64,000 nt of DNA from Haloplanus vescus (GTDB lineage Archaea > Halobacteriota > Halobacteria > Halobacteriales > Haloferacaceae). The first letter of the stretch is position 1. Each line of letters starts with the position of its first letter. The notes beneath the pieces are model-generated. The model was not told where the DNA came from. It did not search any database and saw nothing but the letters and a program-made list of their open reading frames with translations. A program made the position numbers and the translations under genes. Below, piece by piece: positions 48,290-50,538 of this stretch. The DNA lies in the NCBI RefSeq assembly GCF_900107665.1, contig NZ_FNQT01000001.1, positions 541,742 to 605,741 of the forward strand, given 5' to 3'.

Positions 48290-48988
48290 ATGTGTGGTCG
48301 GTACACGCTGTTCACACCGGCATCGAAACTCGCCGAGCGATTCGAGACGGCGACTCCTGACCTCGACCCTCGGTACAACTGTACGCCCGGCCAGGACCTC
48401 CCGGTACTCACGGGCGAGACATCCGACGAGTTCACTCGGATGGAGTGGGGACTCGTCCCCGAGTGGGCCGACGACGGGTCGAACGCACCGATCAACGCGC
48501 GGGCGGAGACGGTCACCGACAAGCCGACGTTCGCCGACGCCATCGAACACCGGCGGTGTCTCGTCCCCGCAGACGGGTTCTACGAGTGGGTCGACCGCGA
48601 CGCGGGCAAACAGCCCTATCGCGTGGCGTTCGAGGACGACCGCCCGTTCGCCATGGCGGGTATCTGGTCACGGTGGCAGCCACCGACTCGACAGACCGGC
48701 CTGGGGGAGTTCGGCAACGGCGGCGCCTCAAGAGACCCCGACCCGATAGACACCTTCGCAATCGTGACGACGGAGCCGAACGAGCTGGTCGCCGACCTCC
48801 ACCACCGAATGGCGGTCATCCTCGACCCCGCCGAGGAGTCGACGTGGCTCCACGGCGATATCGACGAGGCACTCGCGTGCTGTGACCCCTACCCCGCGAG
48901 CGACCTGTCGGCCCATCCAGTCTCGACGCGCGTGAACGACCCGAGTCACGACGACCCGTCGCTGATTCGAGCGACGAGCGAGGCGTGA
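48290..48988 (+). CDS. SOS-response-associated peptidase (SRAP/YedK-HMCES)
   Basis: 232 residues from the ATG at 48290, chosen because the catalytic Cys must be residue 2 (MCGRYTLF). The SRAP hallmarks follow: EWGLVPEWADD, INARAETV (Asn/Arg), HRRCLVPADGFYEW, and HHRMAVIL near the end with the His. The family crosslinks to abasic sites in single-stranded DNA. It has its own promoter and precedes the recombinase locus. Confidence 0.95.
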   Translation: MCGRYTLFTPASKLAERFETATPDLDPRYNCTPGQDLPVLTGETSDEFTRMEWGLVPEWADDGSNAPINARAETVTDKPTFADAIEHRRCLVPADGFYEWVDRDAGKQPYRVAFEDDRPFAMAGIWSRWQPPTRQTGLGEFGNGGASRDPDPIDTFAIVTTEPNELVADLHHRMAVILDPAEESTWLHGDIDEALACCDPYPASDLSAHPVSTRVNDPSHDDPSLIRATSEA

Positions 48989-49000
48989 GTGGTGAGATAT

Positions 49001-49136
49001 TGTATTTGTGCCCGTAGTACTACTTTGGGGGCAAAATTGGGCCCATTTCCACAAATACACCGATATTTGACCGTCATTCACAGCACTACAACCACAAATA
49101 AGAGTCTTTATTCGGCCAACTAGGACTACTTTGAAG
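49001..49136. promoter_or_regulatory. Repeat-rich promoter of the DUF5805-recombinase operon
   Basis: Between the SRAP stop and the DUF5805 ATG there are: TGTATTTGTG (49001-49010) and its exact reverse complement CACAAATACA (49050-49059); a further CCACAAATA (49092-49100); and a direct repeat TAGTACTACTTTG (49015-49027) / TAGGACTACTTTG (49121-49133), the second followed by AAGTA. The composition is AT-rich relative to the genes. It looks like multiple operator sites or a recombination/regulatory locus. Confidence 0.6.
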
Positions 49137-49159
49137 TAACCGGCAATCGAGGACCACGT

Positions 49160-49528
49160 ATGGGAGACACAGTCCCGGTGAAGACGTACGTCCCGCCCTA
49201 CCAGAAGGAACGCTGGCAGGAGCACGCCGACCGACTCGGGATGAGTCAAAGCGAGTTCGTGCGAACGATGGTACAGGCCGGACGACGCGATTTCGAGATT
49301 CCCGAGCAGCCGTCCACAGAGGAACCCGCTGAAGGCGGGTCTTCGGGGCTCGAACCCCGGGTGAAAGACGCCCTGAACGTGGAAGAACACCGTTCGTGGG
49401 ACGCCCTGCTCGACGAGGTGACCGACGGCGTGGAAGACCGACTCGAGGAGACGCTGAACGAACTGCAGGAGGCGAACGTCGTCCAGTACAGCGGACGCCA
49501 CGGCGGCTACACCCTGACAGACGAATGA
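49160..49528 (+). CDS. Ribbon-helix-helix protein, DUF5805 family
   Basis: 122 residues. The N-terminus (residues ~5-43) has the RHH plan: strand VPVKTYV, helix YQKERWQEHADRLG, turn, helix MSQSEFVRTMVQAGRR. A linker and a C-terminal helical segment (LDEVTDGVEDRLEETLNELQ, then VVQYSGRHGGYTLTD) end the protein. RHH proteins bind operator DNA as dimers. The stop overlaps the recombinase ATG by 4 bases, so a DNA-binding partner or regulator of the recombinase is likely. Confidence 0.85.
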   Translation: MGDTVPVKTYVPPYQKERWQEHADRLGMSQSEFVRTMVQAGRRDFEIPEQPSTEEPAEGGSSGLEPRVKDALNVEEHRSWDALLDEVTDGVEDRLEETLNELQEANVVQYSGRHGGYTLTDE

Positions 49529-50538
49529 GCGACACCGTCGACGACCCCGTGGGCTACTTCCTGCAAGACATGACCTACCACGGGAAGACCGACCGCACCC
49601 GCGCCGCCTACGAGCGCGTCCTCCGGAAGTTCGAGTCGTTCCTCGCGGCCGAGCGCGGAGCGACCCCCGCCACCGCAGAGCACCGCGACTGCATGGCGTG
49701 GATTCACCGCCTCCGAGGCACCGTCGCCGAGAGCACCGTCGCCACCTACGCCGCCTACCTCCACCGATTCTACGCCTACATGACCCAAGTCGGAACCTTC
49801 GACTCCAACCCCATGACGCTCGTCGTCGAGGAGATGGACGAGCGAATCAACACCGACCCGGCGCGACGCGAAATCTCGATTCCCCAGATGCGAGAGTTCG
49901 TCACGTCGGTGGCGCATCCCCTCGACCGCGCACTCCTTCTGACGCTGCTCAAAACCGGAGTACGCGTGGGCGAACTCTGCAATCTCGACCTTCGAGACCT
50001 CTCGATTCCGGTGACGCGCGACACACTCGACGTGTCCGTCCGCCCGCAGCTCGACGGACGCGGGGACGCACTGTTCGTCGCCGCCGACCGCGCCGTCGGC
50101 GACGAAATCGACGGCGAAGAGCGGACGGCGGCGAACAAGCGCAAGCGAGCGACGGTCGTCCCCGTCGACGACGAACTCCGCCGCGCGCTGAGTCGCTGGC
50201 TGGCGATTCGTCCGGACCCCGCCCGTGCGAACCCCCTCTTCGTGAGCACGCGCGACGGGTGGGGCGAACGCGTCACGCCACACGCCGTCCACCACGTCGT
50301 CGAATCCCACGCGCGCGAACGCGGGTGGCACCGCGACGGCGGCGGCGCGGAAGAGAACGTCACACCCCACTACTTCCGGCACTTCTTCACGACCCACCTC
50401 CGGGACCGAACCGGGGACCGAGGCATTGTGAAGTACCTCCGCGGCGACGTGGCGAGCGACATCATCGACACCTACACCCACGACTGGGGTGACCGAGTGC
50501 GGATTACCTACGAAGAAAACATCTACAAATTGACGTGA
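49525..50538 (+). CDS. Tyrosine recombinase/XerC-D-like integrase
   Basis: 337 residues from the ATG in the ATGA overlap. The N-terminal SAM-like core-binding domain (KTDRTRAAYERVLRKFESFL) is followed by the catalytic domain: Arg147 in LLKTGVRVGELCNLDLRDL, a Lys in the beta-hairpin NKRKRATVVPV (~205-207), His282 and Arg285 in PHYFRHFFTTHL, and Tyr317 in IIDTYTHDW. The usual third His/Trp position falls in LRGDVAS and is not His. It is not flanked by phage genes, so a housekeeping or stable chromosomal recombinase is as likely as a mobile-element integrase. Confidence 0.9.
   Translation: MSDTVDDPVGYFLQDMTYHGKTDRTRAAYERVLRKFESFLAAERGATPATAEHRDCMAWIHRLRGTVAESTVATYAAYLHRFYAYMTQVGTFDSNPMTLVVEEMDERINTDPARREISIPQMREFVTSVAHPLDRALLLTLLKTGVRVGELCNLDLRDLSIPVTRDTLDVSVRPQLDGRGDALFVAADRAVGDEIDGEERTAANKRKRATVVPVDDELRRALSRWLAIRPDPARANPLFVSTRDGWGERVTPHAVHHVVESHARERGWHRDGGGAEENVTPHYFRHFFTTHLRDRTGDRGIVKYLRGDVASDIIDTYTHDWGDRVRITYEENIYKLT

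Follow-up and report, generated by a model that had tools for sequence, protein, structure and literature searches.

Upstream of a tyrosine recombinase gene in the haloarchaeon Haloplanus vescus lie a gene for a small DNA-binding protein and a promoter region rich in repeats. This arrangement raises the question of what the recombinase acts on and what purpose it serves. An initial annotation proposed a dedicated site-specific recombination system. The small DNA-binding partner and the presence of cis sites at the locus fit this proposal; inversion or excision between the inverted repeats TGTATTTGTG and CACAAATACA is not supported. Coordinates below refer to the window, the 64-kb stretch of the genome that was analyzed. 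The close relatives of the source genome include Haloplanus ruber and Haloplanus sp. LUM.53.

The gene pair and its distribution

The first gene of the pair (49160..49528, + strand) encodes a ribbon-helix-helix (RHH) and winged-helix protein with a DUF5805 domain, and the second (49525..50538, + strand) encodes a single-copy Xer-like tyrosine recombinase with matches to PF00589 and PF02899. The two reading frames share an ATGA, confirming the 4-base overlap reported at annotation. An overlap of 4, 8 or 11 nt is present in 99 loci, and the RHH gene immediately precedes the recombinase gene, in the same direction, in 56/56 and 70/70 loci (126/126). The RHH start noted earlier is supported by the NikA-like N-terminal part of the protein (E=3e-5, just below the gathering score). 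Pfam DUF5805 proper (PF19121, E=7.5e-26) covers residues 53-117 and is separate from the N-terminal RHH part. The AlphaFold model, of moderate confidence (pLDDT 75), has an N-terminal helix-helix followed by a winged-helix-like C-terminus; the C-terminal half contains helices at residues 65-71, 80-88 and 91-104, and two strands. A structure search with the model gave weak matches only, the best being a VapB-type RHH protein. The RHH-winged-helix protein may serve as an accessory factor or autoregulator of the recombinase.

Residues R147, K205, H282, R285, D308 and Y317 of the recombinase are invariant in 37 diverse members with 44-100% identity. When these are set against the catalytic R-K-H-R-[H/W]-Y of archaeal XerA, R147, K205, H282, R285 and Y317 are present, and an Asp occupies the H/W position. 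This residue, D308, is followed by TYTH-N/D-W (within 49525-50538) and stands at what we take to be the position of the second catalytic His in XerD (His/Trp in Xer). The solved structures closest by sequence are the archaeal XerA proteins of P. abyssi and T. acidophilum (4a8e, 5hxy), which a fold comparison also places high in the ranking, along with other tyrosine recombinases. The recombinase scores 110 bits vs the 220 bits needed for NCBIfam XerA (NF040815), and a protein passing this cut-off was found in 0/40 haloarchaeal genomes searched.

A first sample yielded the recombinase in 47/47 genomes, and a wider sampling of the order in all those with completeness >=90% (122/122); almost every genome has a single high-identity copy. 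The RHH family was found in 19/19 genomes of the order and in 0/101 others in a draw from the phylum. A search of the viral collection found no relative, and only two plasmid records carry the recombinase, both megaplasmids of ~1 Mb each. The distribution lacks the profile of mobile-element integrases, namely patchy occurrence, element genes nearby and viral relatives. The recombinase is a single-copy core gene of haloarchaea and not a mobile-element integrase. Its contig position differs widely among complete chromosomes; the dif site of Sulfolobales also departs from the replication terminus (PMC7776575). A SRAP (HMCES-like) gene at 48290-48988 is the upstream neighbor in 12/12 genus members and is found near the operon in a few other genera as well.

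More distant relatives of the gene pair occur in various settings. In the same H. vescus genome, a distant RHH gene and recombinase gene (the recombinase 32% identical) lie beside a serine recombinase (L184:5635-7851; G000:C1 ~1159.6-1161.9 kb), and this set looks mobile-element borne. Paralogous pairs of ~50% identity occur in some genomes (including L189, L190, L194, L191 and L192). In L189, L190 and L194, two TTA-N6-TAA palindromes with a start-to-start distance of exactly 73 bp lie before the RHH gene or at its start; this double palindrome is again a two-part site. On a 21.6-kb contig (L193, G213:C4), a distant DUF5805-recombinase pair neighbors genes for a Prim-Pol protein and a ParA-like ATPase. 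Such surroundings are typical of plasmid maintenance and suggest that the same module serves this purpose there. At two loci (L187 in G245:C1 and L188 in G261:C7), a second RHH-recombinase copy, which appears to be frameshifted, points the opposite way across the site. A solitary DUF5805 protein is encoded on a Halobaculum halophilum plasmid (NZ_CP058532.1; L175:3947-4333), in a region that also encodes proteins of the ParA family and of the Orc1/Cdc6 type; neither a recombinase nor a core is nearby.

A composite site upstream of the operon

The repeats described at annotation are present in the promoter region. The 10-base inverted pair consists of TGTATTTGTG at 49001-49010 and its reverse complement CACAAATACA at 49050-49059, each 10-mer being unique to its position within the window. 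One further copy of CACAAATA begins at 49093, and the direct repeat TAGTACTACTTTG / TAGGACTACTTTG is found at 49015 and 49121. The repeats are kept in 12/12 genus genomes, all of which keep the gene pair; loss of the repeats in such relatives would have spoken against the initial proposal, so this outcome favors it. The 12 species align almost without gaps from the first repeat to the start codon, in the order TTGTATTTGTG (Box1), CACAAATA (Box2), CACAAATAA-N6-TTAT, GTGGGACTACTTTGAAGT and start codon. The composite pattern TATTTGTG-N34-42-CACARATA occurs in 9/12 genus genomes, each time only at this operon and once per genome, and its reversed control pattern has no match in the 12 genomes. The repeats are far above chance. 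The extra CACAAATA is the left arm of a palindrome, because the genus alignment places it in CACAAATAA-N6-TTAT.

This palindrome, overlooked in the initial annotation, has an 11-6-11 structure at 49091-49118. It consists of a left arm ACCACAAATAA (49091..49101, + strand), a spacer GAGTCT (49102..49107, + strand) as the putative crossover region, and a right arm TTATTCGGCCA (49108..49118, - strand). A core of this kind was placed in 102/123 non-identical loci. Nearly all placements followed a TAA-N6-TTA rule at the distance expected, and three cores farther upstream (L018, L024 and L168) were placed by hand. L018 and L024 first seemed coreless; the start codon there is ~270 bp downstream of the core. 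In most species this distance is ~50-60 bp, and the core coincides in part with a plausible TATA region. The 11-bp palindromes of individual species can be nearly perfect, and a perfect 11/11 palindrome, TTCCCACCTAA AGGCCC TTAGGTGGGAA, is present at locus L154. A plain pattern scan with RATAAN6TTATY was not specific, giving several unrelated matches per genome. One of these matches, a conserved intergenic palindrome between other genus genes, AATAATATTTGTTATC (L090 and L080, position 1501-1516), is unrelated to the recombinase system.

The two arms change together. The three innermost arm positions are fixed; farther out, positions 4-8 covary (z = 2.6-5.1), and the halves of the spacer, unlike the arms, show no covariation (z = -0.9, -1.1, -2.6). 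In an alignment of 73 sequences from 73 species, the arm covariation score was 0.245 vs 0.132 +- 0.013 in shuffled data (reached in 0/500 shuffles) and at most 0.118 when the partner was slid by 1-3 columns; the shuffle control ignores the relatedness of the species, and the slide control does not. Double changes in the arms numbered 123 vs 76. Symmetric half-site changes can also be seen by eye (GATTA/TAATC, GATCA/TGATC, TCTTA/TAAGA). A plain TATA box was rejected as an explanation of the TTAT, since the half-sites change symmetrically. Two 11-bp arms, a central hexanucleotide and ATAA-N6-TTAT inner ends are features of dif (PMC2731167, PMC8371274), and proteobacterial dif sites have the 11-6-11 and ATAA-N6-TTAT structure as well (PMC2731167). 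The palindrome at 49091-49118 is the likely crossover site.

Box1 (TTGTATTTGTG; 49000..49010, - strand) has a core invariant in 12/12 genus genomes and is an arm-like site in inverted orientation. Box2 (CCACAAATACA; 49049..49059, + strand), seen in the genus alignment, is an arm-like site in direct orientation. The relation of the boxes to the core was analyzed at 101 loci by comparing each genome's own core arm with the 134 bp upstream. The own arm matched better than differing arms from other genomes (7.73 vs 7.08 of 10; Wilcoxon p = 6e-8), and the same comparison in two control regions showed no difference. Own-arm matches peak at -42 from the core on the plus strand (direct) and near -88 on the minus strand (inverted), which are the positions of Box2 and Box1. 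A single protein with species-specific recognition therefore probably binds four arms, i.e., Box1, Box2 and the two core arms. The boxes look like accessory binding sites, because their orientation and near-constant spacing are fixed in every species and the same offsets are found in other genera. Box1 and Box2 were rejected as a recombination pair on account of this fixed geometry.

A second class of motif flanks the core. The left flank GCACTACA (49083..49090, + strand; genus consensus GGYACTACA) is a candidate RHH site, and the right, promoter-proximal flank is TAGGACTACTTTGAAGT (49121..49137, + strand; order consensus GTGGGRATAGATTGAAGT). The motif reads GGNNCTA to the left of the core and GTGGG to its right, and it is dyad-symmetric and covarying (0/500 shuffles; slid controls reach about half the score). 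The ACTAC direct repeats of the initial annotation (ACTACTTTG) are members of this class. The RHH protein, as the obvious candidate, probably binds the ACTA/GTGGG flanks.

A covariance model of the core with its flanks, R1, was run on 146 whole genomes of the order. At E<=0.01 it matches 98/122 near-complete genomes, a result whose independent value lies in the genomes not used for the model and in the absence of other matches, as part of the genomes searched had fed the model. By inspection, every match at this threshold is at the operon, roughly 430-770 bp before the recombinase gene, and none is elsewhere. Some of the ~20% of genomes without a match have variant cores, and a few show none. 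No copies of the site were found in searches of other replicons of the genus and of plasmids.

Four Halosimplex genomes and one MAG have an operon without an adjacent core. In these five, R1 weakly finds a detached site upstream of the operon on the same strand (E 0.0016-0.12). The detached core is intact, NNCACAAATAA GGGTCT/GGGCCT TTATCCGNNAN, and its distances from the RHH reading frame are 14.6, 2.6, 0.95, 2.2 and 2.9 kb. All five genomes retain Box1, at -84 to -87, and four of the five have Box2 at -43. The intervening DNA encodes an IS66 transposase and a Rep-like DUF1424 protein in one Halosimplex genome, a GAF-domain protein in another genome, and an ammonium transporter in yet another. 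The GTGGGAGTAGATTGA-like promoter-proximal motif remains with the RHH gene. The composite site is not merely the promoter of the operon, because Box1, Box2 and the core are conserved as a unit 0.95-14.6 kb away. A simple operator would not be expected to survive intact so far from its operon, and the conservation of the detached site is the strongest single argument for a function of its own.

Near the RHH gene, two Halosimplex genomes carry a second core-like site in inverted orientation, whose spacer differs (L213:3140-3167; reverse-complemented L212:15421-15448). One of its arms is identical over all 11 bp to an arm of the detached core.

Alternative explanations

The palindrome and boxes could be operators through which the RHH-winged-helix protein represses its own synthesis, with the recombinase acting at another genomic target. 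RHH proteins often autoregulate through operators with half-sites ~11 bp apart, and here the flanking motif and the core sit at the promoter, the core lying over the plausible TATA region in most species. The detached sites argue against operators, as Box1, Box2 and the core stay together with unrelated genes in between, and only the promoter-proximal motif stays with the RHH gene. In addition, the symmetry spans 11-bp arms around a non-symmetric 6-bp spacer, as in dif. We regard the operator explanation as unlikely, while giving it more weight than the other two alternatives.

The recombinase could also be a domesticated or decaying integrase with a present role other than resolution, such as plasmid or virus integration at the site. 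Related pairs do occur in mobile contexts, including the paralogue in the same genome and the 21.6-kb contig with ParA and Prim-Pol; genes for a Rep-like protein and an IS66 transposase separate site and operon in one Halosimplex genome, and the divergent second copies across the site in G245 and G261 appear broken. This reading is hard to reconcile with universal single-copy retention (122/122 near-complete genomes), with the invariance of R147, H282, R285 and Y317 over 44-100% identity, or with the viral collection, in which no relative was found, and it appears quite improbable. Least probable of all is the local invertible or excisable switch first suggested at annotation, with TGTATTTGTG and CACAAATACA as crossover sites. 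The inverted pair does adjoin the recombinase gene, but its arms, ~39 nt apart, do not vary in orientation or spacing between species, the same arm copies are seen again at constant offsets in other genera, and the pair shows no core geometry in the genus.

A probable Xer/dif-type resolution module

The explanation that we favor, and consider likely, is that the locus is a haloarchaeal single-recombinase Xer/dif-type resolution module that has irs-like accessory arms and an RHH-winged-helix partner and operates without FtsK. It accommodates the universal single-copy gene pair, the dif geometry, the covarying arms, the fixed accessory arms, the uniqueness of the site and its conservation when detached. 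The binding partners, the strand exchange and dimer resolution as its purpose are what we infer from these observations. Several points count against a role in resolution. No strain-level recombination events were seen. The absence of the site from secondary replicons of the genus counts against it, because those would also need resolution. D308 at the His/Trp position, the failure to reach the XerA cut-off and the ~20% of genomes without an R1 match weigh in the same direction. Haloarchaea are polyploid, and deletion of four Xer-like genes of Haloferax volcanii, which may or may not include the present orthologue, did not affect viability (PMC7776575).

The mechanism is most likely one analogous to Xer, cer/psi and TnpI/irs of Tn4430 (PMC5357621, PMC7157771). 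The recombinase, translationally coupled to the RHH-winged-helix protein, would act at a site of ~130 bp just upstream of its own operon, composed of the crossover core, two further recombinase arms (Box1 and Box2) that form no core, and the ACTA/GTGGG flanks. A nucleoprotein complex would form, with the recombinase bound to the four arms and the RHH protein to the flanks. Protomers on the two core arms would carry out strand exchange, and those on Box1 and Box2, together with the RHH protein, would wrap and pair two sites. On a fused (dimeric) chromosome, the complex would bring together two sites in direct repeat and allow exchange only in the resolving topology, thereby replacing FtsK control, which archaea lack. 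Core and promoter region overlap in most species, so the complex may also regulate expression of its own operon there, as TnpI does.

The proposed module shares with Xer/dif systems a core-gene recombinase (122/122), a 28-bp 11-6-11 site and one site per chromosome. The archaeal XerA/dif systems of Pyrococcus abyssi, Thermoplasma acidophilum and Sulfolobales likewise have a single tyrosine recombinase, an 11-6-11 site, one per chromosome, and no FtsK; XerA proteins are also the best solved-structure sequence matches of the haloarchaeal recombinase, and in Sulfolobales dif is near xerA (PMC2958812). Unlike them, the haloarchaeal system has an obligate RHH partner, accessory arms and an invariant Asp at the His/Trp position, and its recombinase falls under the XerA family cut-off (40/40 genomes searched). 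Single-Xer modules with a site adjoining the gene are already known (PMC5357621). In XerS/difSL and XerH/difH, one Xer recombinase is genetically linked to its site (PMC5357621, PMC2731167), but these systems need FtsK, lack an RHH partner and accessory arms, belong to another phylum and use other half-sites.

The layout of the site resembles that of TnpI/irs of Tn4430 and Tn5401, in which a core inverted pair and two subsites lie upstream of the recombinase gene (IR1, IR2, DR1 and DR2), with promoters inside the site (PMC7157771). Likewise upstream of the recombinase gene, the haloarchaeal site combines a core inverted pair with boxes at -42 and -88 that match its own arm, and this layout is kept in detached sites. 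The concerted change of the arms suggests that the recombinase may occupy all subsites and that the accessory subsites may impose resolution selectivity. In the related TnpS+TnpT/rst system, TnpS works with a helper protein, TnpT (PMC7157771). In contrast to these transposon cointegrate resolvases, the haloarchaeal recombinase is a universal chromosomal gene, its accessory arms are one inverted and one direct, and its helper is an RHH-winged-helix protein. At cer/psi with XerCD, PepA and ArgR/ArcA, a crossover core is likewise combined with accessory DNA (~180 bp) and accessory proteins that enforce resolution only (PMC5357621); those accessory proteins are unrelated, whereas the haloarchaeal partner is dedicated and encoded in the same operon.

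One review notes that archaea have no known counterpart of FtsK in the control of Xer resolution (PMC8371274). A 2020 review describes the haloarchaeal dif site and the responsible recombinase as not established and counts 12 XerC/D-like genes in H. volcanii (PMC7776575). No haloarchaeal dif site or chromosome-resolution system was described in the open-access literature searched. The present analysis singles out the universal recombinase among the haloarchaeal ones and provides an exact candidate site in most genomes. DUF5805, a family of no assigned function, emerges as a likely control factor. The proposals for recombinase, site and DUF5805 can each be tested in Haloferax volcanii. Whether this is the general chromosome resolution system of haloarchaea, in which a topological filter built into the site by extra arms and the RHH-winged-helix partner enforces directionality instead of FtsK, so that dif and transposon-type resolution logic are joined in one cellular module, is in our estimate evenly balanced. 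In summary, the recombinase and its small partner probably separate the fused chromosomes of haloarchaea.
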